From assembly GCF_023703795.1 (NCBI RefSeq), contig NZ_CP098518.1, positions 2,356,001 to 2,420,000 on the forward strand: a DNA stretch of 64,000 nucleotides, given 5' to 3'. Source of the stretch: Haloplanus sp. HW8-1 (GTDB lineage Archaea > Halobacteriota > Halobacteria > Halobacteriales > Haloferacaceae). The notes under the pieces were generated by a model that saw only the letters and a list, made by a program, of their open reading frames with translations, was not told where the DNA came from and did no database searches. Positions 12,545 through 22,789 of the stretch are shown here, one piece after another; the first letter of the stretch is position 1, and every line of letters begins with the position of its first letter. The translations under genes were made by a program, and so were the position numbers.

Positions 12545-13489
12545 TCAGACCAGCGACGGATCGAACGGCTCCGCAGGGGTCTCGACCGTCCACACCGTCC
12601 CCGACCCGTCCGGATCGATCAGGCTCACTCGGTCGTGGTCGTAGTGGGCGACGACCAGTCGACCCGTCTCCGGAATCGCGGCCCCGGCGAACGCGGGCGC
12701 CGGGAGGTCGACGCGTTGGTCGTCGGCGAGGGAGTGCAGGACGGCCCGCTCCCGGTCGAGCACCCACGGGGTACCGTCCGCCGCCACGACCGCCCAGGGC
12801 CGTCCACCGACGTCGTGGCGCGTTCGGTCCGAGAGTCTCGGATCGAGTTCGGTCACCGTTCCGTCGTCCCGACCCGGGACGAACAGCCGTCCGGTGGCGA
12901 CCGTCGCCTCGTAGGGGTTCGTGCCGACCGGTGCCACCGCCGAGCGGCCGGACTCGGTGACCCTGGCGATTCGCCCGCCAGCCTGATCAACGGCGTAGAC
13001 AGCGCCGGCACCCGCGTCGACGCCCTGGATCCGCGCCTCGGTGCCGAGGTCGACCGTCCGTCGGAGACGGCCGGCGGCGGGGTCGACCACCGAGACGGTC
13101 CCCTCGGCTCGACTTCCGACGAACGCCAGTCCGTCGCGGACGGCGACGTCGTGAGGCTCCGCGCCGACGCCGACCCGATCGACCAGCCGCAGCGCCTCGC
13201 AGTCGACGACCGCCAGCGCGTCGCCGCCGGTGCAGGGGACGAGCAGGCGGCCGTCGTCGGTGACCGCGAAGTGTGACGGGCCGAGGACCCCGAGGTCGAT
13301 CCGGGCCACCCCGCCGTCCCTGATCGCGGCGACGGCGCGCTCGCCCATCGTCGCCACGAAGACGGTTCCGTCGACCGTCGCGAGGTGAACCGGATGCGAG
13401 CCGACCGGAATCCGCCCGCGTTCGCTCCCGTCCCCCCCGTCGAGCAGGAGTACGCAGTCCGCGCCGGCACAGGGGACGGCGACGAGCAT
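12545..13489 (-). CDS. YncE-like beta-propeller protein
   Basis: A 314-residue repeat protein with about six YVTN/YncE-type propeller blades (e.g. RIPVGSHPVHLATVDGTVFVA, RVGVGAEPHDVAVRDGLAFVG). The ATG overlaps the stop of the rhodanese-like gene (ATGA), so it is the third gene of a three-gene operon. No clear signal peptide is seen at this start; the N-terminus MLVAVPCAGADC is short and carries two cysteines. It could act in the cytoplasm or be exported with its TAT-bearing operon partners. The ligand is unknown. Confidence 0.75.
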   Translation of the reverse strand: MLVAVPCAGADCVLLLDGGDGSERGRIPVGSHPVHLATVDGTVFVATMGERAVAAIRDGGVARIDLGVLGPSHFAVTDDGRLLVPCTGGDALAVVDCEALRLVDRVGVGAEPHDVAVRDGLAFVGSRAEGTVSVVDPAAGRLRRTVDLGTEARIQGVDAGAGAVYAVDQAGGRIARVTESGRSAVAPVGTNPYEATVATGRLFVPGRDDGTVTELDPRLSDRTRHDVGGRPWAVVAADGTPWVLDRERAVLHSLADDQRVDLPAPAFAGAAIPETGRLVVAHYDHDRVSLIDPDGSGTVWTVETPAEPFDPSLV

Positions 13490-14556
13490 CAGCCGGTACA
13501 GGAGAAGCCGCCGTCGTCGTCGCCGCCGACGGAGCCGGTGGTTTCGACGACCGTCGTCGTCTTCGTCTCGACCGGATAGCGCCCGCGGAGCGTCTCGGGG
13601 ACGTTCGCCCACTCCCCGAACCCGCCGTCGTACAACCGGACGTCTTCGGCCTGGAGCGCACGCAGGACGAGCCAGGTGTTCGTCGGGTTGACGTTCCCCT
13701 GTCCGTACACGACGGTCGGACCGTCCATGTCGACGCCGGCCGACTCGAAGTACAGCCCGGCGAGCGTTCCCGGTTCGGCGAGTTGCTGGCCGTTCACGTT
13801 ACCGGTCCAGTGGACGTCGACGGCCCCGGGAAGGTGGCCGTGACGAGCGTTCGAGTCGACCAGTTTGGCGGCGTTTCGCGCACCGAGATACGCCTCGGGC
13901 GGTCGAACGTCGATCAACCCAGGCCCGTCGGCGTTGAACGAGCCGACCCGATCGGCGATCCAGTCGCGCGTCACGATCAGGTCGTCGTTCGGAGACGCCT
14001 CGTACCTCGTCTCGACTGGGACCCGCGATCCGACGCCGACTCGTCCGTTCCAGGCCTCGTAGCCGCCATTGAGCACCGTGATCTCGCCCTCGTGACCGAG
14101 ATATTCGAGGGCGAAGACGACCCGAGAGACACGGGCGCCGACGCTACTCCCGTAGACGACGACGTCCCGGTCGGGGGTCAGGCCGACCGATCCGAGCGTC
14201 GACGCGATGGCGTCCGCGTCGGGGACGAGTCCCGACTCGCGCTCGGCCCGTGCGGTCACCGATTCGACGGGGACGCGACGCGCCCCGTAGACGTGCTCCC
14301 GACGGAACCGTTCGCGACTCCGGGCGTCGAGGAAGACGGCCGACTCCGCGGTCAGTTGGTCCGGACCGCGGAAGTACGCGACGTTGCCGCGAATCGACGC
14401 GGCGCTGGCCACGTCGGCGGGCGTACTGATGCCCGCACACCCCGCGGTGCTCGCGACGCCGGCCCCCGCCGCGGCCGCCAGCAACGAGCGGCGAGTGACG
14501 TCGCCGTCGGCACCGGCATCGTCGTCGCTCGTGTCCTCCGAGTGATCGTCGCCCAT
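13489..14556 (-). CDS. TAT lipoprotein with two rhodanese-like domains lacking the catalytic Cys
   Basis: A 355-residue secreted protein. The twin-arginine signal TRRSLLAAAAGAG ends at a lipobox (STAGC). Two rhodanese folds follow: the first contains FLDARSRERF ... VVVYGSSVGARVSR ... LNGGYEAW, the second LIDVRPPEAY ... GHLPGAVDVHW ... VVYGQGNVNPTNTW ... LYDGGFGEW. In thiosulfate sulfurtransferases the active-site loop reads C-G-x-G-x; here both loops have Gly where Cys is expected. The only other cysteine is in the C-terminal tail (FSCTG). It may bind rather than transfer sulfur. It lies in an operon with two propeller proteins, next to a thiosulfate-type importer. Confidence 0.85.
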   Translation of the reverse strand: MGDDHSEDTSDDDAGADGDVTRRSLLAAAAGAGVASTAGCAGISTPADVASAASIRGNVAYFRGPDQLTAESAVFLDARSRERFRREHVYGARRVPVESVTARAERESGLVPDADAIASTLGSVGLTPDRDVVVYGSSVGARVSRVVFALEYLGHEGEITVLNGGYEAWNGRVGVGSRVPVETRYEASPNDDLIVTRDWIADRVGSFNADGPGLIDVRPPEAYLGARNAAKLVDSNARHGHLPGAVDVHWTGNVNGQQLAEPGTLAGLYFESAGVDMDGPTVVYGQGNVNPTNTWLVLRALQAEDVRLYDGGFGEWANVPETLRGRYPVETKTTTVVETTGSVGGDDDGGFSCTG

Positions 14557-15864
14557 CTACAGTTCGTGCCCGCAGGCACAGTTGCCGATACAGTACGTGG
14601 TGCCCGTGCCCTTCGCGGCGATGTCGATGCCGAGCGTCGCCATCGTCCCCAGCATGTCGGCCGCCGTGTCGGTCTGGGGTCGCACGCGCCCGGCCGTCGC
14701 CCCGTAGGGCTTCGAGCCGACGGAGATCGTCTCGACGATTTCGCCGGCCGCGTGGTCGAGCACTTTCACCTCGTCGGCGGTCTGGACCGGAACGTAGAGT
14801 TTCTCCTGGTTCGGCCCCCACGTCCCGACGAAGGCCGACCCGCCGAGATCGATCCGGTCGGTCACTTCGGCGGACGCGAGGTCGACGACCGTCACGTCGT
14901 TCGTATCCGCGGTGAAGACGTATCCGACCGCAGAGTCCGGGCCGATCTCGCTCGTCAACGGCAGTTCGCCGAGGCCGTCCTCGCTCGTCAGGCGGGCGAC
15001 CTCCTCGGGGTTCGCCGGATCGCTGATATCCCAGACGCTCTCCGTGCCCGTCTCCCCCTCGTTGTTCTCGACGAGCATCGTCTCGCCGTCCCAGGCCGCG
15101 GTGTCCATCCACGGGCGGACGGCGTCGGCGCCGGCCGTGGGTTCGACGGCCACCTGGTTCGCGATCTCGAACGACTCGACGTCGATGATCGAGAGCGTGT
15201 CGCCGAAGATGTCGGGGACGTAGGCGTACTGCCCGTTCGGGTGGATCGTCACGTCACAGGGGCCCGGTCCCTGGTTCTCGCCACGGCCGCCCTCGGGCTT
15301 GCGGTCGATCTCGGCCGTCACCTCGCCGAACGTCCCCGACGTCGGATCGGCGTCGAGTCGGTACTGCATGTGGGTCGGCTCCCTGGCGCTGACGACCAGA
15401 TGCGAGCCATCCGGGGTGACCTCCTGCCAGTTCGCCCCGGAGCCGGTCTCGAACGACATCTCCTCCGAGAGCGAGGCGGCGGTGAACGCCCGGACCCCGT
15501 CTTCGACGTTGAGCCACATGACCGACTCCTCGGTCGCGAGTTGGTCGACGACGTACTGGTTCGAGGGGAACGACGACGTGGCGCCCAGATAGGCGGTCGT
15601 CACCAGTTCGTCGGCCGCGGCGTCGATGACGCTCACGGTCCGGTCGCCGGTGTTGAACACGAACACCGTCGGCGGGCCGCCGTCGCCCGAACCGCCTCCC
15701 GTGCCGTCGTCGGACGATCCTGCACAGCCGGCCGTCGCGGCCATCCCTGCCGCGGCCGAACCGGCGAGGAGCCGGCGGCGGGAGACGCGCCCCGATTCGT
15801 CCCCCGACGCGCGCTCGCCCCCTCGGTTCGGATAGAGTGCTTCGCTTCCGGACGTATCGCTCAT
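14557..15864 (-). CDS. TAT-exported YVTN beta-propeller lipoprotein with Cys-rich tail
   Basis: A 435-residue protein. The twin-arginine signal SRRRLLAGSAAAGM ends at the lipobox TAGC, followed by a Ser/Gly-rich spacer and a seven-blade-type YVTN propeller (TVFVFNTGDRTVSVID, GQYAYVPDIFGDTLSIID, KLYVPVQTADEVKVLD, ETISVGSKPYGATAG). The C-terminus ends in a compact cysteine motif, YCIGNCACG, unusual for this fold and able to bind a metal. The start at ATG was preferred over one 17 codons upstream because the signal peptide needs no longer N-region. It is the first gene of the operon, and its stop abuts the next start. Confidence 0.85.
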   Translation of the reverse strand: MSDTSGSEALYPNRGGERASGDESGRVSRRRLLAGSAAAGMAATAGCAGSSDDGTGGGSGDGGPPTVFVFNTGDRTVSVIDAAADELVTTAYLGATSSFPSNQYVVDQLATEESVMWLNVEDGVRAFTAASLSEEMSFETGSGANWQEVTPDGSHLVVSAREPTHMQYRLDADPTSGTFGEVTAEIDRKPEGGRGENQGPGPCDVTIHPNGQYAYVPDIFGDTLSIIDVESFEIANQVAVEPTAGADAVRPWMDTAAWDGETMLVENNEGETGTESVWDISDPANPEEVARLTSEDGLGELPLTSEIGPDSAVGYVFTADTNDVTVVDLASAEVTDRIDLGGSAFVGTWGPNQEKLYVPVQTADEVKVLDHAAGEIVETISVGSKPYGATAGRVRPQTDTAADMLGTMATLGIDIAAKGTGTTYCIGNCACGHEL

Positions 15865-16019
15865 TACCGGAACTACCGGCCCGACGGGGATAGGTACACC
15901 GGAGCGATGAGCCATTGCCCTTTATCCGAGTATGAAGAAAATATTGCCGGCTTCGGGGTCAAGGGGCAAGGCTGCACCGTACCGTCAGAGCGAGACGCCG
16001 GGAGGTACTCGGTTCCACC

Positions 16020-17228
16020 ATGCTGACACTCTCGCCACTGGGGTATATTGCCCTGTCCATCGGCGTCGGGCTGGCGTTCGGCGTCCTGCTGCAGAAAGCA
16101 CGATTCTGCTTCGTCAGTGCCTTCCGTGACTTCGTCGCGTTTAAAGATACGCGGGTGTTGAAAGGCGTCCTCGCGGGCGTCGTGGTGATGACGCTGTTCT
16201 GGAGCCTCCAGGCGACCCTGGGCTATTTCCGCGGGTTCTGGACGCCGCCGTGGGGGCTCGCGTCGCTGTTCGGCGGGTTCGTCTTCGGCGTCGGGATGAC
16301 GATGGCCGGCGGGTGTGCGTCCGGCACCCTCTATCGGGCCGGCCAGGGCTACGTCCAGTTCTGGATCACCCTGCTGTTCATGGGCATCGGATACGTCCTG
16401 TTCGCCTTCGCCTTCCCGACGCTCCGGTCGGTCTACTTCGAACCGCTCCGGTTCGGCGAGGGGGCGACGCTCTACCTGGCGCTGCCCTGGCCGCCCGCGG
16501 TCACCGGCGTATTGGTCGCGGCGGCCATCGTCCTGCTGTACGCCTTCGTCCGGGGCCGTGCGCGCCTCCCCGAGGAGCCGCGGGGCGGGACGGACGTCGC
16601 CGCCGACACCCGGGCTCAGGCGGCCGCTCCCGGACGCTCGATCACGGCGCTGTCCCTCGGGCTCCGGGAACTCGCCCACGGTACGCGAGACTACGTCGAG
16701 GCCGTCCGGTCGGACGATCGCCCCGTTTCGGCCCGTCTGCGCGACTCCTGGGACGCCCGGGCCGCGGGCGTCGGCCTGGCGCTGGTCGCCAGTCTGTGGT
16801 TCTGGGTCTACGGTGCCTGGGCCATCACCGGGAGCGAAGCCAAGTGGGCCGGCTGGCTGCTCTCCCGGGCCGGTGTCGACGTCGGGAACGTCGAATACTG
16901 GGGCTCCGTCCTCTTTCGTGGCGGCGGCATCTCCGTCACGGTGGACATGCTGATGGTGCTCTCGGTCGTCGTCGGCTCGTTTCTCGCGGCGCGGGCGTCG
17001 GGCGACTTCCGGATTCGGTGGCCCAAGCGCGAGCGTCTCGCGAACCCCATCGTCGGCGGCCTGCTCATGGGCGTCGGCTCCCGGCTGGCACCGGGGTGTA
17101 ACATCGCCAATCTCTTCAGCGGCGTCGCCTTGCTCTCCGTACACTCGATCCTCGCCGGCGCCGGTATCGTCCTCGGGACGTACGTGATGACTCACTGGCT
17201 CTACCGGGAGGTGGGCTGTGCGATCTGA
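16020..17228 (+). CDS. YeeE/YedE (TsuA-like) thiosulfate/sulfur transporter
   Basis: A 402-residue polytopic membrane protein with about nine or more helices. The three cysteine motifs typical of TsuA/YeeE are present: KARFCFVSAFRD (Cys30), AGGCASGTLYRAGQG (Cys99) and LAPGCNIANLFSG (Cys360). In the characterised bacterial homologue these cysteines relay thiosulfate across the membrane. The protein is a fused, duplicated form with a soluble loop around residues 180-240. It is divergent from the propeller/rhodanese operon and precedes the cysteine-synthase-like gene by 84 nt, which supports a sulfur-uptake role. Confidence 0.88.
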   Translation: MLTLSPLGYIALSIGVGLAFGVLLQKARFCFVSAFRDFVAFKDTRVLKGVLAGVVVMTLFWSLQATLGYFRGFWTPPWGLASLFGGFVFGVGMTMAGGCASGTLYRAGQGYVQFWITLLFMGIGYVLFAFAFPTLRSVYFEPLRFGEGATLYLALPWPPAVTGVLVAAAIVLLYAFVRGRARLPEEPRGGTDVAADTRAQAAAPGRSITALSLGLRELAHGTRDYVEAVRSDDRPVSARLRDSWDARAAGVGLALVASLWFWVYGAWAITGSEAKWAGWLLSRAGVDVGNVEYWGSVLFRGGGISVTVDMLMVLSVVVGSFLAARASGDFRIRWPKRERLANPIVGGLLMGVGSRLAPGCNIANLFSGVALLSVHSILAGAGIVLGTYVMTHWLYREVGCAI

Positions 17229-17312
17229 TCGCCCGGCGTCGCCGGAGCGACGCTATCACTGGATCGTGCCGGAGGCGTCACACCCTTCCTCGTCGGCCGC
17301 GGTGGCTACGGT

Positions 17313-18332
17313 ATGAGCGAGTCCCTCGCGTTCGACGAGTCACACATCGGCGAGACGCCCCTGATCGAACTCGCCGTCGACGTCCCCGCAACGGTCTACG
17401 CCAAGGTCGAGTGGCTGAACCTCTACGACGCGCCGTACGGCGGCGGGTCGATCAAGTCACGCATCGCCAAGGGGATGCTCGACGGCGCCGAGAAGCGGGG
17501 TGACCTCACGCCCGGAACGACGGTCATCGAGCCCACCAGCGGAAACACCGGTAGCGAGGTGGCACGTCTCGCGACCGCCCGCGGCTACGACGTGGAGATC
17601 GTCATGCCCGACAACGCCAGCGGGGGGAAGATCGGCGCCGTCGAGGACGCGGGCGCGACGATCCACTTCGTCGACGCCGACCTCGGCTACGACGCCGTCA
17701 TCGACCGCTGCGAGGAACTCATCGCGGAGGACCCCGACCGGTACTACCGTCCCAACCAGTACGAGAACCCCGACAACCCCGGCACGCACGAGCGGACGAC
17801 CGCCCCCGAAATTCGATCGCAGACCGACGGCGACGTGACACATTTCGTCGCCGGTGTGGGCACGGGCGGGACGGTCACCGGCACCGGTCGGGGACTGCAC
17901 GACGCGGGCGACGTGACCGTCGTCGGCTTCGAACCCGCCGAGGTGCTGCACGCCATCGACGGCCTGAAATATCTCCGGACGGGCGACCACTACCACCCCG
18001 AGACGTACGACGAGTCGGTGCTGGACGAGAAGGTCTACGTGAACACGAGCGACGCGTACGACCGGGCACGGGAACTCCGCGAGGTCTACGCCGACGCCGA
18101 GATTCCGGTGGTCGATACGGGTCAGTACGACGAGTCGACGGTTCGTGAACGGCTCCGCGTGGACGGGCAGTTCGTCGTCGGGACGTCGTCCGGCGCCGGC
18201 GTCCAGGCCGTCCACGAACTCCACGAGACGGCGCCGCTGTCCGCGGACGACGTCGTCGTGATGGTGCTCTGTGACCGCGGCGACAAGTACGCCGACATCC
18301 CGCTCTGGGAGGCGTATCTGGACGAGGGATGA
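17313..18332 (+). CDS. Cysteine-synthase family PLP enzyme
   Basis: A 339-residue fold-type II PLP enzyme. The Schiff-base lysine is Lys48 in GGGSIKSR, the substrate loop is EPTSGNTG (73-80), the phosphate-binding loop is GVGTGGTVTG (181-190) and the C-terminal Ser of GTSSGAG contacts the ring. These mark O-acetylserine/O-phosphoserine sulfhydrylases and relatives. The loop around Lys48 has a short insertion (LNLYDAPYGGG) compared with CysK/CysM. Its position between a thiosulfate-type importer and a ThiS-like protein plus E1 suggests it may use a protein thiocarboxylate as sulfur donor, as actinobacterial CysM does with CysO (inference). Confidence 0.88.
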   Translation: MSESLAFDESHIGETPLIELAVDVPATVYAKVEWLNLYDAPYGGGSIKSRIAKGMLDGAEKRGDLTPGTTVIEPTSGNTGSEVARLATARGYDVEIVMPDNASGGKIGAVEDAGATIHFVDADLGYDAVIDRCEELIAEDPDRYYRPNQYENPDNPGTHERTTAPEIRSQTDGDVTHFVAGVGTGGTVTGTGRGLHDAGDVTVVGFEPAEVLHAIDGLKYLRTGDHYHPETYDESVLDEKVYVNTSDAYDRARELREVYADAEIPVVDTGQYDESTVRERLRVDGQFVVGTSSGAGVQAVHELHETAPLSADDVVVMVLCDRGDKYADIPLWEAYLDEG

Positions 18333-18341
18333 CGACCGTGA

Positions 18342-18608
18342 TCAGACCCGGCCGCCGCTGGCCGCCGGAATGACGCGGATCCGGCTCCCGGAGTCGACCG
18401 GGGTGTCGAGCCCGGACACCTCCGACCCGTCAACGTAGACGTTGATGAACTCCTTGATATCGCCGTCCTCGACGACGCTGTCCCGGAGTTCGGGACCGTG
18501 TTCGGCCGCGTGATTCTCGAACAGTTCGGCCAAGGTGTCCCCGTCGACCTCCACCGACGACGAACCGCCACCGCCGCTGAGTACCGCAGGCACCTTAATC
18601 TCGGGCAT
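18342..18608 (-). CDS. ThiS/MoaD/SAMP-like small sulfur-carrier protein with GG-Arg-Val C-terminus
   Basis: An 88-residue ubiquitin-fold protein. The N-terminal strand is EIKVPAVL, the central helix is TLAELFENHAAEHGPEL, and the C-terminal block VDGSEVSGLDTPVDSGSRI then IPAASGGRV is the CysO/MoaD signature. The Gly-Gly pair is at residues 85-86, followed by Arg-Val. ThiS, MoaD and SAMPs normally end at GG, so this form would need removal of two residues before adenylation. QbsE/QbsD is a known precedent for such trimming by a JAMM protease, and a JAMM gene lies 3 kb away. The ATG was chosen because the fold starts there; the upstream extension is not protein-like. Confidence 0.85.
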   Translation of the reverse strand: MPEIKVPAVLSGGGGSSSVEVDGDTLAELFENHAAEHGPELRDSVVEDGDIKEFINVYVDGSEVSGLDTPVDSGSRIRVIPAASGGRV

Positions 18609-18720
18609 GGATCGAGGTTGGACGGTTGGCCGTATAAACGGCACGTCGCCGGCAACCGCGATAGCGGCAGCCGTGCATCTCTCCGTCGGCCTTATCCGCC
18701 GGTAGACCGGACGTGGCTGC

Positions 18721-19581
18721 ATGAGCGACCCCGACCTCGACCTCGATCCCACGCAGCTAGATCGCTACTCTCGCCACATCATCATGGACGACGTCGGCCC
18801 GGAGGGACAGCGGGACCTACTCGACGCGAGGGTGCTGGTGCTGGGTGCCGGGGGACTCGGCGCGCCGATCATCCAGTATCTCGCCGCGGCGGGCGTCGGC
18901 ACGCTGGGTATCGCCGACGACGACGAGGTGGAACTGTCGAATCTCCAGCGACAGGTGATCCACGGCGACGACGACGTGGGACGCAAGAAAGTCGAGAGCG
19001 CCGCCGAGTTCGTGGCCGACCTCAACCCGGACGTCGACGTCGAGCGACACGACCTCCGGGTAACGGCCGACAACGTCGAGGACCTCATCGACGGCTACGA
19101 CTTCGTCGTCGACGGCACCGACAACTTCCAGACCCGATACCTCGTCAACGACGCCTGCACTCTCGCCGGCATCCCCTTCTCGCACGGCTCCATCTTCAAG
19201 TTCGAAGGACAGGTCACCACCTTCGCGGGCGAGGCCGACTCGCCGTGCTATCGGTGTATGTTCCCCGAGGCGCCGCCGGCGGGGATGGTGCCGAACTGCG
19301 CGACGGCGGGCGTCCTCGGTGTCCTCCCGGGGACGGTCGGCTGCATCCAGGCCACGGAGACGGTCAAGGCCCTCATCGGCAAAGGGAATCTCCTCGACGG
19401 CCGGATGGTGTTCTACGACGCCCTGGAGATGGAGTTCGACACGGTCGAGATCACGAAAAAGGACGACTGCCCGGTCTGTGGCGACGACCCGGCCATCGAC
19501 TCCGTCCACGACGTCGAGTACACGGCGTCCTGTGCGATCGACGCGGGGTCGGCGGCGGAGCCGGAGATGTCGGTCGACTGA
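18721..19581 (+). CDS. ubaA: E1-like adenylyltransferase UbaA (MoeB/ThiF family)
   Basis: A 286-residue E1 enzyme. The nucleotide-binding GAGGLG is at residues 42-47, and DNFQTRYLVNDAC is the adenylation core. The zinc ligands are Cys176/Cys179 (CYRC) and Cys250/Cys253 (CPVC). The predicted catalytic cysteine is Cys193 in PNCATAG. The sequence closely resembles what I recall of Haloferax UbaA, which activates SAMPs for both protein conjugation and tRNA/molybdopterin thiolation. Its start is 112 nt from the divergently oriented ThiS-like gene, a natural partner arrangement. Confidence 0.93.
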   Translation: MSDPDLDLDPTQLDRYSRHIIMDDVGPEGQRDLLDARVLVLGAGGLGAPIIQYLAAAGVGTLGIADDDEVELSNLQRQVIHGDDDVGRKKVESAAEFVADLNPDVDVERHDLRVTADNVEDLIDGYDFVVDGTDNFQTRYLVNDACTLAGIPFSHGSIFKFEGQVTTFAGEADSPCYRCMFPEAPPAGMVPNCATAGVLGVLPGTVGCIQATETVKALIGKGNLLDGRMVFYDALEMEFDTVEITKKDDCPVCGDDPAIDSVHDVEYTASCAIDAGSAAEPEMSVD

Positions 19582-19725
19582 CTGTGTATCGTAAGGAGGC
19601 ACGTACAGACGCCCCCGTGAATTGCCTACGAACCGATCCGTGAGCCCCCCCAACCGCGCGACCGTCTCCACCATAGAAATGTATCTCAGTTAATCAAAAC
19701 CACGCAAACGTGTGACGTGGCGGCG

Positions 19726-19735
19726 TTTCTTATAG
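19726..19735 (+). promoter_or_regulatory. TATA box of the PAS histidine kinase gene
   Basis: TTTCTTATAG is centred about 25 nt upstream of the ATG, consistent with a leaderless transcript. The 50 bases preceding it are AT-richer than the surrounding genes. Confidence 0.45.
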
Positions 19736-19755
19736 TAGTATGACTAACACTTTGT

Positions 19756-20769
19756 ATGGACGCCGCCATGGAGGAAGGCGCATATCAGCAACTACTCGAG
19801 GGGGTGGCCGATCACGCGCTGTTCATGCTCGACACGGAGGGGTGTCTCTCCATGTGGCCCGAAACGGCCCAGCAGTTCTACGGCTACGACCCCGGGAACG
19901 CAGTCGGTCGCCGACTGGACGTACTCTTCGCCGAGGAACGGGGAGAGCCGCCTTCCGTCGAAGATCTGCTTGCGGAGGCGAAGGACGGACCGGTCGAGAT
20001 CGACAACTGGCACGAGCGAGCCGACGGGTCGGTGTTCTGGGGAAGTTGCACGCTCTCACCCCTGTCGAACGGGGCGGACGACGGCTACGCGGTCATCGTT
20101 CAGGACACGACCACGCGCAAACAGCACGAGCGGATGCTCGAACGCCAGAACGACCGGCTGAAGGAGTTCACGGACATCCTCTCACACGATCTGCGGACGC
20201 CGCTGGGGATCATCGACGGCCGTCTGGAGTTGTTCCGAGAGTCGGGCGAGGGCGAACACCTCACCGCTATCGAGGAGACGACCGACCGGATGGAACGACT
20301 CGTCGAGGACCTACTCCGTGTCGCCCGACAGGGGCAAGTGGTCGACAATCCCGAACCGACCGATATCGGCAGTCTGCTCGAAATCGCCAGGGAAGGGGCG
20401 CTTCCCGCGACCGCCACGCTCCGGTACGACTCGGTTCCGCGGATGATGGCCGACCCCGATCGACTGGTGCAAGTGTTCGAGAACCTCCTGCGGAACAGCG
20501 TGGAACACGGCGGTGACAGCGTCACCGTCCGGGTTGGGCCGCTCCGCGACGGCTTCTACGTCGAAGACGACGGCCCCGGCATTCCCGAGGGGGACCGTGA
20601 GCGGGTGTTCGATCACGGGCATACGACCCGCGAAGACGGCACGGGGTACGGTCTCTCGGTCGTTCGTTCCATCGTCGGCGCGCACGGCTGGGACGTCTCC
20701 GTCGTTGCCGCGGACCACGGTGGCGCCCGGTTCGAGATCACGGGCATCGAGTTCGTCACCGGCGAGTAA
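19756..20769 (+). CDS. PAS-domain sensor histidine kinase
   Basis: A 337-residue soluble kinase. A PAS domain (residues ~8-120, with LDTEGCLSMWPETAQQFYGYDPGNAVGR) is followed by a DHp domain with the H-box FTDILSHDLRTPLG (phospho-acceptor His144). The HATPase domain has the N-box (VFENLLRNSVEHG), the G1 box (VEDDGPGIP) and the G2 box (GTGYGLSVV). There are no transmembrane segments and no receiver domain. Orphan kinases of this layout are abundant in haloarchaea. A cysteine (Cys30) in the PAS domain might sense thiol state given the sulfur-gene context, but that is speculation. Confidence 0.9.
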   Translation: MDAAMEEGAYQQLLEGVADHALFMLDTEGCLSMWPETAQQFYGYDPGNAVGRRLDVLFAEERGEPPSVEDLLAEAKDGPVEIDNWHERADGSVFWGSCTLSPLSNGADDGYAVIVQDTTTRKQHERMLERQNDRLKEFTDILSHDLRTPLGIIDGRLELFRESGEGEHLTAIEETTDRMERLVEDLLRVARQGQVVDNPEPTDIGSLLEIAREGALPATATLRYDSVPRMMADPDRLVQVFENLLRNSVEHGGDSVTVRVGPLRDGFYVEDDGPGIPEGDRERVFDHGHTTREDGTGYGLSVVRSIVGAHGWDVSVVAADHGGARFEITGIEFVTGE

Positions 20770-20806
20770 CAACGGCCCTCGCAGTTCGCGTGACGGTCCG
20801 TATTCG

Positions 20807-21392
20807 CTACGTTTCCGGGGAGGAGAGGATCCAGCAGTCACTGGAGAGGGTCGCCTCGTCGGGGTACGTGAGCAACTCCCGTACCATCCGGTCTCCCGCT
20901 ACCCGATACCGGACCTTGTGGACGTACGCATCGATCGGCATCGGCGTCGGTGTGCTCCCGTCGGGGCCCCGTCGTCGTCGCCGGCGCCCCCTCGACTTCG
21001 AGTAGGAGACGATACCTCTCGCCCAGGGTCTCGCTTTCGATCACCCGCAGGTTCGCAATCCCGCCATACTCGGACCGCGTCGCCACGGCGTAGACGCGTT
21101 CGAACTCGGTGACGTACGAGCGGATGCTCTCCGCCGTCAACTCGGTTGGGCGTGCAGGCAGTCCGTCGACGTCGGGAAGCGGCTGGCAGGCGTCCGGAAA
21201 CGGGACGGGTGTGCGCGTCGGCGTTCCACCTCCGTCCGTCGACGTCGATGGCGCCCGTGTCGGGGTCGCACTCGGCGCCGACCGCGTCGGTGTCCCCCCA
21301 TCGTCGGCTGTGGAGTCGCTGCCAAGACACCCCGCAACGCCGATCATCCCGAGCGAGGCCGCTGCCATGGCGAGGAGGTCACGACGATACAT
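20807..21392 (-). pseudogene. Lipoprotein gene interrupted by a one-base frameshift
   Basis: The gene starts with a lipoprotein signal (MYRRDLLAMAAASLG ... GVAGC), then a Thr/Ser-rich linker and a small domain (LTAESIRSYVTEFERVYA, ANLRVIESETLGERYRLLLEVEG). At the run GGGGCCCC (20963-20970 on the plus strand) the frame slips. In the initial frame the tail becomes Arg/Gly-rich nonsense ending at 20838. Removing one base gives a convincing continuation, PMPIDAYVHKVRYRVAGDR then ELLTYPDEATLSSDC, ending at 20807. So the gene is about 194 codons long if repaired. The cause may be a real mutation, phase variation in the homopolymer, or a sequencing error. The function is unknown. Confidence 0.8.
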
Positions 21393-21564
21393 ACTCGGTG
21401 ATGGTAGCAGTAATCAAAGTCTTTTGTGGAGACTCACACCGCCGGTTCAGTTTGTGACCGAAGGAGCCGCGTCGGGAGACTGGGGCCGATCCGCCGAATG
21501 CGCGCTCTGCATCTCGGGAGCCGCTACCGAGTGCGCGGTTCGACGGGCCGACGATTCGAACGAG

Positions 21565-21999
21565 TCATTCCACAAGCGCGACCGTCTCCCGCTCGAACCG
21601 CTCGCCGGTCCACCGCCACGATCCCAGATAGGGATAGCCGTCGAACGCACAGATGGCGTAGGAGTATCCCGGCCACGTCGCTCGGGCGGCGTCCGTCTCG
21701 CTCGGTTCGACCGGCCCGGCGGGGTGACTGTGATAGAAGCCGACGACCTCGAGGCCGGCGTCCTCGACTCGCTCGGTGATCTCGAACTGCTCTTCCGGGT
21801 CCATCGCGTACCGGACCTGGGGCCTGTCGGCGACGTTTTCGGCCCGGTGTATCTCGCGAACGACGCTCTGGGTCTCGCCGTACTCGCCGGCGAGGACGCC
21901 ACAGATCTCCTCGTCGCCGCCATCGTAGCCCTGGTAGACGATATCGTCGTAGGCATCACGCGACAGGCGGAGCACGGACCCGTTCCCGTCAGTCGTCAC
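21565..21999 (-). CDS. JAMM/MPN+ metalloprotease (Mec+/desampylase-like)
   Basis: A 144-residue single-domain JAMM protease. The catalytic Glu31 lies in EEICGVLAGE, and the zinc motif H-S-H-P ... S-x-x-D spans His90, His92, Ser100 and Asp103 (H-x-H-x10-D). The GTG start at 21999 overlaps the rhodanese stop by 11 nt; a start 23 codons upstream would lie deep inside that gene. JAMM proteins of this size include archaeal desampylases, actinobacterial Mec+ (releases cysteine from CysO) and QbsD (trims a ThiS-like precursor). Context with a ThiS-like protein ending GG-Arg-Val favours a processing or cysteine-release role (inference). Confidence 0.87.
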   Translation of the reverse strand: MTTDGNGSVLRLSRDAYDDIVYQGYDGGDEEICGVLAGEYGETQSVVREIHRAENVADRPQVRYAMDPEEQFEITERVEDAGLEVVGFYHSHPAGPVEPSETDAARATWPGYSYAICAFDGYPYLGSWRWTGERFERETVALVE

Positions 22000-22312
22000 G
22001 TTCGAGGTCGTACTCCCAGGCGTCGTAGCCGCCCTGCATGCTACGGACCGAGCCGGCGTCCTCGACACCCTCGTAGCTCCCGATGAGACGTGCGGCCTGG
22101 ATCGACGACTGGCCGATTGGACAGGCGACGACGACCTCCTCTTCCCACTCGATCTCGTCGATCCGGCTCGGGAGTTCGCCCATCGGCACGTTGAGCGCGC
22201 CGGGAATGTGTCCGGTGGCGAAGTCGTCGGGATCGCGGATGTCGATGATCTGCGGTCCGTCCCCGGACTCCAGTCGCTCGTGGATCTCCTCGGGGGTGAC
22301 TTCCTCGACCAT
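21989..22312 (-). CDS. Single-domain rhodanese sulfurtransferase
   Basis: A 107-residue rhodanese with the conserved IIDIRDPDDFATGHIPGA block and an intact active-site loop ACPIGQSS with catalytic Cys64, followed by GGYDAW. Unlike the exported rhodanese-like protein nearby, this one should carry persulfide. It is the middle gene of the TusA-like/rhodanese/JAMM operon: 2 nt after the TusA-like gene and overlapping the JAMM gene. It is a likely sulfur donor to the E1-activated carrier, the role the rhodanese domain plays when fused to MoeB in MoeZ/MOCS3. Confidence 0.9.
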   Translation of the reverse strand: MVEEVTPEEIHERLESGDGPQIIDIRDPDDFATGHIPGALNVPMGELPSRIDEIEWEEEVVVACPIGQSSIQAARLIGSYEGVEDAGSVRSMQGGYDAWEYDLERDD

Positions 22313-22314
22313 GG

Positions 22315-22614
22315 TTATCGCTTCCGGAGGAAGATTTGGTAGCGACCGTCCCCGCTCTTCCAGACGTTGGCCTCCGCGAGGTCTTCGACGGCCTTGGGGA
22401 CGTTCTCCGTGCTCGGGACGTGATCGGTCTCCTGTACCAAGAGATCGCCCGCTTCCAGGCTCTGGATCGCCTTTTTGGCCTCGACCTGCGGATACGGACA
22501 GACCTCACCCGTCATGTCCTGTACCTCGTCGGCTCGATCGTAGAGATCCTGTGCCGTCTCGTCGTCGAGTTCGTCCGGGAGGTCGACGACGTCCTCCCAG
22601 TTGGCGTCTGCCAT
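22315..22614 (-). CDS. tusA: TusA-family sulfur-carrier protein
   Basis: A 99-residue TusA/SirA-like protein with the signature EVCPYPQVEAKKAI (Cys39, CPxP). An N-terminal acidic helical extension of ~30 residues precedes the TusA fold. An upstream in-frame ATG exists nine codons earlier, but the chosen ATG gives the more usual N-terminus. It is the first gene of the three-gene sulfur operon. TusA proteins accept persulfide sulfur and hand it to further carriers, here presumably the adjacent rhodanese. Confidence 0.87.
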   Translation of the reverse strand: MADANWEDVVDLPDELDDETAQDLYDRADEVQDMTGEVCPYPQVEAKKAIQSLEAGDLLVQETDHVPSTENVPKAVEDLAEANVWKSGDGRYQIFLRKR

Positions 22615-22789
22615 GCTCCGAAGGAGGGGTTCTGCGGGCATACCCGTTACGAACCTCGCAGACCTCTCCCCTATCTCCGACGCTCCCGGCCCAAACCCTC
22701 TCGGGCGACCCCGGCGGGAGGCTTCTGGCGCGGCACACGACGCGTCCCCAGGCCGGAAGACATCTCCGTGTCGATGCCGACAAACGCGT

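Follow-up and report, generated by a model that had tools for sequence, protein, structure and literature searches.

Synthesis of cysteine on a small sulfur carrier protein has been described for mycobacteria. In the scheme outlined in PMC3227635, an E1 enzyme adenylates the carrier, a rhodanese persulfide converts it to a thiocarboxylate, an enzyme dependent on pyridoxal 5'-phosphate (PLP) adds the thiocarboxylate to aminoacrylate, and a JAMM protease frees cysteine. The operon types listed in a 2006 survey, mainly in bacteria, include those composed of ThiS/MoaD, E1, JAB, and cysteine synthase genes, or those with SirA (TusA) (PMC1779556). A 2010 survey (PMC2948915) mentions some links between E1 and cysteine synthase genes in archaea and describes archaeal Jab genes as seldom close to those for Ubl proteins. 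Here we describe a locus at positions 12545 to 22641 of a 64,000-nucleotide stretch of the genome of the haloarchaeon Haloplanus sp. HW8-1 (contig NZ_CP098518.1, positions 2,356,001 to 2,420,000; the whole stretch is referred to as the window). The locus probably specifies a haloarchaeal variant of the CysO-type route, in which cysteine is made from a protein thiocarboxylate, with thiosulfate-type sulfur as its feed. We found no earlier description in the open PubMed Central literature of the haloarchaeal gene set, of its E1 paralog, or of its carrier, which is capped by residues after the Gly-Gly end; PMC8305020 yielded nothing on this point.

A sequence-only reading of the window had proposed a CysO-like cysteine pathway composed of a YeeE/YedE transporter, a cysteine-synthase-family enzyme, a ThiS-type carrier, a UbaA, a JAMM protease, an active-site-complete rhodanese, and a TusA protein. 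Family scans recovered all of these parts, and sequence comparisons support the proposal. The gene for the cysteine-synthase-family PLP enzyme, called PALP here (17313 to 18332, forward strand), matches PF00291 with 173 bits and TIGR01136 with 250 bits, under the cutoff of 344 for the latter. Beside it, on the reverse strand (18342 to 18608), is the gene for a CysO-like ThiS-type sulfur carrier of 88 residues that ends in PAASGG-RV and passes the PF02597 model (31.7 bits; cutoff, 22.5). The forward-strand gene at 18721 to 19581 encodes a UbaA-type E1, UbaA2, which passes the NF047750 cutoff (481 bits versus 450) and belongs to a paralog clade, so that its function may differ. Three further genes lie on the reverse strand: a JAMM/MPN+ metalloprotease gene (about 21565 to 21996, with an uncertain exact start; PF14464, 68.7 bits) with a complete HxH(x7)S(x2)D motif, a single-domain rhodanese gene (21989 to 22312; PF00581, 65 bits), and a gene for a TusA-family sulfur-relay protein with a CPYPQ motif (22315 to 22641, with a start that may be at 22614; PF01206, 45.6 bits). 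The rhodanese that had been called active-site complete is the single-domain protein, with its Cys in the loop CPIGQSS, unlike the double rhodanese at 13489 to 14556, which has no Cys in either active-site loop.

The conservation of this neighborhood was assessed by scanning a collection of one genome per species (84,980 species) with PALP. The best 80 of 143 matches were kept, and these represent 78 distinct loci, 36 of them haloarchaeal (50 to 85% identity) and 42 from other organisms (33 to 39%). The haloarchaeal loci carry the organism labels Haloferacaceae (mostly Halorubrum), Haloarculaceae, Natronoarchaeaceae, Halobacteriaceae, and others. Since they were chosen by PALP, this gene is in all of them by construction, and several stop at contig edges, where the gene counts are lower bounds. 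Using profiles built from the haloarchaeal set, we found the rhodanese in 32 loci, UbaA in 30, TusA in 29, the carrier in 28, and JAMM in 27. All six core genes (carrier, PALP, UbaA, rhodanese, TusA, and JAMM) were together in 23/36 loci from several families, a clustering beyond chance, and 17/36 loci have these six plus YeeE. In one locus (J07HX64, L028), the carrier and UbaA are each present in two copies a few kilobases apart. A shared neighborhood was not supported for the 42 nonhaloarchaeal relatives: the haloarchaeal profiles at an E value of 0.01 found no carrier, E1, rhodanese, TusA, JAMM, or YeeE beside them, a weak negative given that many of the contigs are short and the profiles narrow.

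The carrier and PALP go together. In a tool-drawn sample of 145 genomes of the order, scores to the carrier profile show a gap, with 9 genomes at 92 bits or more, which we took as having a close carrier, and a best match of 40.5 bits or less in every other genome; the 20 weak matches that were fetched are SAMP1-like. PALP, scored as present at an E value of 1e-70 or better, was found in all 9 of the close-carrier genomes and in 22/145 overall (hypergeometric p, 8e-9; this and the Fisher value for UbaA below are uncorrected for genome kinship). One PALP match, in G100, is part-length and covers profile positions 4 to 194 only. The pairing also holds where the genes are unlinked and is therefore not explained by linkage alone. 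In G121, a carrier-UbaA-JAMM-YeeE group lies 72 kb from PALP-TusA-rhodanese; in G006 and G008, the carrier adjoins JAMM and PALP is on another contig; and four loci with a PALP of 71 to 79% identity and no carrier in the locus stretch (L009, L010, L020, and L041) come from genomes that, in 4/4 cases, have a carrier elsewhere (144 to 153 bits). In a phylum-wide draw, the carrier was found at an E value of 1e-15 in 10/392 genomes, in one of these at only 60 bits. The draw included one further member of the window's genus, whose genome lacked the carrier; the system is thus rare and patchy.

A second UbaA accompanies the carrier and PALP in most cases. The UbaA of the sequence-only reading is present, although it is not the sole one in the genome, as one further UbaA-type E1 gene of the host lies at C1:26950 (516 bits to NF047750; the cluster copy scores 480.6 bits). 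Two copies of UbaA were found in 10/145 genomes, comprising 7 of the 9 carrier genomes and 3 of the 136 others (G048, G056, and G081; Fisher p, 1.8e-8). G006 and G008, the other two carrier genomes, each have a single UbaA. A midpoint-rooted tree was built from 58 UbaA rows, excluding rows shorter than 240 residues (such as L033) and any second copy in the same locus (L028). In it, the 33 rows from carrier-bearing clusters formed one clade with support of 100/99. The cluster UbaA is a clade of its own in this one tree, and the possibility that it is an ordinary haloarchaeal E1 was rejected on the basis of the second genomic copy and this separate clade. Fifteen rows from families f1 and f5, including the housekeeping copies that seven of the cluster-bearing genomes also have, are separated by a branch with support of 99/94, and the single-copy UbaA of families f6, f8, f9, and f11 falls on the cluster side of that branch. 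The copies of G006 and G008 adjoin the cluster clade, a placement that is moderately supported (93/86), and two Halarchaeum rows, whose PALP loci are without a carrier, stand outside it. A copy from Halovenus (Haloarculaceae) is nested among rows that are mostly from Halorubrum, which is where transfer of the gene from one family to another would put it. Taken with the linkage, this tree of UbaA, the one gene that was treed, leads us to infer that the whole set may move between families as a unit. As a separate observation, family f9 includes five carrier-less genomes with lower-scoring PALPs (G034, G102, G107, G117, and G141) in which UbaA lies 3 kb or less from PALP. In L097, L098, and L101 and, by coordinates, in G102 and G117, all of that family, it is the single UbaA that is found at most 3 kb away from PALP, which is here a more distant one, in genomes without a close CysO-like carrier.

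By sequence and by predicted fold, the carrier is nearer to CysO than to SAMP1 or MoaD. Its best phmmer matches were 4n6e_B (the BexX/CysO complex) and 3dwg_C (Mycobacterium tuberculosis CysO), above SAMP1, and it scored 43.4 bits against the SAMP1 model NF041918, under the cutoff of 60. The AlphaFold model of the carrier (mean predicted local distance difference test [pLDDT] score, 84.5) aligned to three CysO entries with Z scores of 14.2 (root mean square deviation [rmsd], 2.4; 85 residues aligned), 13.5 (rmsd, 2.7; 85 residues), and 13.2 (rmsd, 1.9; 82 residues), to a Thermus MoaD-related protein with 12.2, to SAMP1 with 10.7 to 10.2, and to the rest with 8.9 or less. The sequence-only reading had held that a carrier serving only molybdopterin synthesis or tRNA thiolation would speak against it. 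The genome evidence points away from such a role: the host has five further PF02597 matches, the carrier resembles CysO, and none of the moaE, thiG, or tRNA-thiolase families turned up among the proteins scanned around the cluster.

Most carriers do not end at Gly-Gly. Among 42 distinct carriers, 38 extend 1 to 3 residues past it and 4 end there; the added residues are R in 28 and Q in 2, with RR, RV (the window), QF, SR, AR, QA, CSP, and TRA once each. Because E1 chemistry needs a free terminal glycine, capped carriers should be trimmed first, and the JAMM protease would be the natural candidate for this step. In the experiments described in PMC6043591 and PMC4443979, archaeal JAMM proteases reportedly cleaved precursors of SAMPs as well as a fusion of SAMP1 with MoaE, and in the fusion the cut was exactly behind Gly-Gly. 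The idea that a C-terminal cap is unique to the carrier was rejected, as 8 of 23 listed SAMP1-like proteins with PPVSGG have 2 to 6 residues after it (for example, GGTQ and GGSVGR). Seven of these eight are from the window's family, and one is from a genome whose family is not given. Proteins of this kind are found in the host genome itself (L001, at C1:1923262) and in L130, L131, L133, L134, L135, L141, and L111. In other named families, 12/12 sampled SAMP1-like proteins end at Gly-Gly.

The JAMM motif HxH(x7)S(x2)D is intact in 11/11 aligned rows, the active-site Cys of the single rhodanese is present in 32/32, and the TusA Cys is present in 27/29 (missing in L020 and L036). At an E value of 1e-10, a JAMM match was found in 106/145 genomes, nearly always one per genome; 8 of the 9 carrier genomes have one and G087 has two. 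The second PF14464 gene of the host (37.8 bits) is not among these matches. UbaA and JAMM genes lie within about 3 kb of each other in at least 12 carrier-less genomes, picked by eye (for example, G092, G031, G014, G004, G032, G080, and G143), and the UbaA-JAMM pair may therefore predate the cluster. These housekeeping neighbors run contrary to the statement on archaeal Jab and Ubl genes in the 2010 survey (PMC2948915).

PALP scores 212.6 bits against the CysK model TIGR01139 (cutoff, 350.95) and is also under the CysM and joint CysK/M cutoffs. Its predicted structure (mean pLDDT, 83.5) has the O-acetylserine sulfhydrylase fold, with Z scores of about 32 to many CysK entries. Compared with eight CysK-like relatives and the host CysK, PALP has 6 extra residues inserted ahead of the PLP lysine and a further insertion of about 26 residues near residues 259 to 284, and a Ser or Thr replaces the Asp after the PLP lysine (SIKSR/SVKTR versus SIKDR). 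We do not class PALP as an ortholog of mycobacterial CysM. As to the distribution of the classical genes, G006 is the only genome of the 145 with neither a CysK-model match (E value, 1e-60) nor a CysE match (1e-15). Loss of CysE along with the cluster was considered and dropped, since none of the 9 genomes sampled from genus g2 has CysE, whether the carrier is present (3 genomes) or absent (6 genomes).

Upstream of PALP is the gene for a YeeE/YedE (TsuA-like) sulfur-compound transporter (16020 to 17228, forward strand; PF04143, 190 bits). It meets only this wider family and is below the cutoffs of the TsuA models (NF052577, 143 of 400 bits; NF041049, 92 of 645 bits). Cys is present at four of its columns in 14, 14, 17, and 17 of 18 rows, some of which are partial. 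The full gene order from 12545 to 22641 is prop2, double rhodanese, prop1, YeeE, PALP, carrier, UbaA2, kinase, lipoprotein, JAMM, rhodanese, and TusA. The two beta-propellers, the double rhodanese of twin-arginine type, the PAS histidine kinase, and the small lipoprotein did not figure in the list of the sequence-only reading. The beta-propeller gene prop2, defined by its open reading frame and translation (12545 to 13489, reverse strand), has an uncertain start codon, with the first internal ATG at 13489 and the frame opening at 13612. The double rhodanese (13489 to 14556, reverse strand; PF00581, 94.6 bits) has by its sequence a twin-arginine/lipoprotein-like N terminus and a C-terminal FSCTG whose Cys is invariant in 16/16 aligned rows. 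The other propeller gene, prop1 (14557 to 15915, reverse strand), recognized from weak propeller matches and sequence, encodes a twin-arginine/lipoprotein-like protein ending in CIGNCAC, with the three C-terminal Cys residues in 14/14 aligned rows. Of the 36 haloarchaeal loci, 18 have YeeE, 16 the double rhodanese, 15 prop1, and 16 prop2, and this three-gene module (12545 to 15915) goes with YeeE; it is possibly a unit for the capture of sulfur compounds outside the cytoplasm. The kinase gene (forward strand) and then the lipoprotein gene (reverse strand) occupy 19756 to 21392, between the UbaA2 and JAMM genes; across the 36 loci, the lipoprotein had no match and the kinase one weak match (L016).

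We infer the reaction steps, the sulfur source, the product, and the joint action of the parts, which would fit together as follows. YeeE, perhaps aided by the extracytoplasmic proteins, would import thiosulfate or a similar sulfane-sulfur compound; as precedent, YeeE and the TusA-type YeeD are presented as thiosulfate uptake partners in PMC11073785. Judging from their families and intact Cys residues, TusA and the rhodanese may take up the sulfur as a persulfide. The JAMM protease would trim the residues after the Gly-Gly of the carrier, a need that follows from the carrier sequence. By analogy with known E1 chemistry, UbaA2 would then adenylate the exposed glycine, and the persulfide on the rhodanese or TusA would convert it to a thiocarboxylate. 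PALP would form aminoacrylate from activated serine and join it with the carrier thiocarboxylate to give a carrier-cysteine adduct. The same JAMM protease would cut after Gly-Gly again, releasing cysteine and renewing the carrier; since this release is the same cut as the removal of the cap, the enzyme is a candidate for both. We speculate that the route is an alternative to the host CysE and CysK, perhaps for thiosulfate or for oxidizing conditions.

Several observations weigh against this pathway. The host keeps a CysK elsewhere in its genome (360.5 bits to TIGR01139) and a CysE, both over their cutoffs, so making cysteine as such does not require the cluster, the cluster is not the only cysteine route of the host, and a cysteine-auxotrophy test in the host would be confounded. 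Co-occurrence of the gene set in relatives, the check that the sequence-only reading had suggested, is strong, yet a close carrier is missing from 13 of the 22 PALP genomes in the sample of the order. In twelve of the 13, PALP scores lower, at 430 to 544 bits; G006 and G008, which do have the carrier, score in the same range. Closer PALPs without a carrier are those of G110 (602 bits), which has a rhodanese-TusA-PALP-JAMM group, and of L035 (68% identity), outside the 145-genome sample. YeeE is in only 18/36 loci, and the stretches examined in G006 and G008 held no rhodanese, TusA, or YeeE match. SAMP1-like proteins are capped with or without the cluster, and the cap is thus not specific to the system. 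A JAMM gene added specially for the cluster, in parallel with the second E1, is not supported, as 97 of 136 carrier-less genomes have one (Fisher p, 0.11). Finally, the best Protein Data Bank matches of PALP are 2bhs and 2v03, cysteine synthase B, with no special closeness to mycobacterial CysM, and in fold M. tuberculosis CysM (Z score, 31.8) ties with the CysK entries, so that the fold comparison was set aside as a discriminator of the two types.

The strongest rival is a thiosulfate route of the Escherichia coli type, in which YeeE and TusA import the sulfur, PALP condenses thiosulfate or sulfide with activated serine, and the carrier, E1, and JAMM serve other sulfur transfers. The match of PALP to 2bhs (E. 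coli CysM) would suit this route, as would the Lys219 of PALP, which aligns with an Arg in that match, although distant CysK-like relatives also have the Lys. The cooperation of YeeE and YeeD in thiosulfate uptake is established (PMC11073785), and the 13 PALP genomes without a carrier also speak for this route. We nevertheless consider this route rather unlikely: it leaves unexplained why PALP is in 9/9 carrier genomes, also when unlinked, why a second E1 accompanies the carrier and PALP, and why G006 and G008 have a carrier, a JAMM protease, and PALP with no YeeE or TusA match in the stretches examined.

Two further explanations were considered. The thiocarboxylate might be destined for a sulfur product other than cysteine, for example homocysteine, some thio-amino acid, or a metabolite that is thiolated. 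Several products are made with the help of carriers that have this fold; the nearest structure, 4n6e, is a complex of CysO with the thiosugar enzyme BexX; and the host already has CysE and CysK. The biosynthetic enzyme that accompanies the carrier is nevertheless a PALP with the cysteine synthase fold, and no family of the O-acetylhomoserine sulfhydrylase type was among the proteins scanned around the cluster, co-occurrence with enzymes elsewhere in the genomes not having been tested; we regard this explanation as unlikely. Alternatively, the locus could serve a specialized SAMP conjugation, with the carrier as protein modifier, UbaA2 as its E1, JAMM as its remover, and PALP and the rhodanese as bystanders or targets. 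UbaA, SAMPs, and JAMM conjugate in Haloferax in the work reported in PMC4443979, and the UbaA-JAMM neighbors in at least 12 carrier-less genomes would be in keeping with this. It appears very unlikely given a carrier that is nearer to CysO than to SAMP1, PALP in 9/9 carrier genomes, and the rhodanese and TusA beside PALP in 32/36 and 29/36 loci of the PALP-chosen set.

If the cysteine pathway proposed here is correct, synthesis from protein-carried sulfur would extend to the haloarchaea, whose UbaA and SAMPs serve as a model of ubiquitin-like tagging. In Haloferax, a housekeeping E1 of this kind serves tagging, tRNA, and molybdopterin. UbaA2 with its metabolic carrier, set beside such an E1, would offer a naturally occurring pair in which to study how a single E1 family is divided between sulfur transfer and conjugation. 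The capped carrier gives a direct prediction, namely, that it is trimmed before use. We tentatively hypothesize, as a proposal that is less likely than not to be correct, that the locus is a horizontally moving archaeal cysteine module in which a dedicated E1 insulates metabolic sulfur transfer from protein tagging and one JAMM protease makes two chemically equal cuts, one removing the Arg cap and one the product cysteine; the cap would act as a stand-in for the product and silence fresh carrier until the release enzyme is present.

In its composition, the locus resembles the actinobacterial CysM-CysO-MoeZ-Mec+ system of M. tuberculosis, with which it shares a CysO-like carrier, a PLP enzyme of the cysteine synthase fold, a MoeB-type E1, a rhodanese function, and a JAMM protease. 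It differs in being archaeal, in having the E1 and the rhodanese as separate genes with no MoeZ fusion (the rhodanese function could come in trans), in the additional TusA and often YeeE, and in the cap after the Gly-Gly of the carrier; the E1 is a UbaA paralog, and mycobacterial CysM is not the closest match of PALP, which has two insertions. Carriers with residues after Gly-Gly that are trimmed by a JAMM protease encoded beside them are known from HcyS/HcyD of Wolinella and QbsE/QbsD of Pseudomonas, whereas the partner enzyme here is a PALP with the cysteine synthase fold. The operon types 4c, 4d, and 4e of PMC1779556 are similar in their described gene content, with ThiS/MoaD, E1, JAB, and cysteine synthase in type 4c and SirA/TusA in type 4e where the E1 is without a rhodanese domain; the examples given are from bacteria and, for type 4e, also from one crenarchaeon (Pyae). 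Compared with the types as given there, the present locus combines TusA, a free rhodanese, and a cysteine-synthase-family gene, and does so in haloarchaea. With the SAMP1/UbaA/HvJAMM1 system of Haloferax, as presented in PMC4443979, it shares a UbaA-family E1, a JAMM protease, and a beta-grasp protein with Gly-Gly and differs in its own E1 clade, its CysO-like carrier, PALP, and the sulfur-relay partners. The YeeE-YeeD (TsuA-TsuB) and CysM system of E. coli, in the account of PMC11073785, likewise has genes of the YeeE and TusA types close to one for an enzyme of the CysK/M family; in the haloarchaeal locus, YeeE scores under the TsuA cutoffs, and a carrier, an E1, a JAMM protease, and a rhodanese are added.

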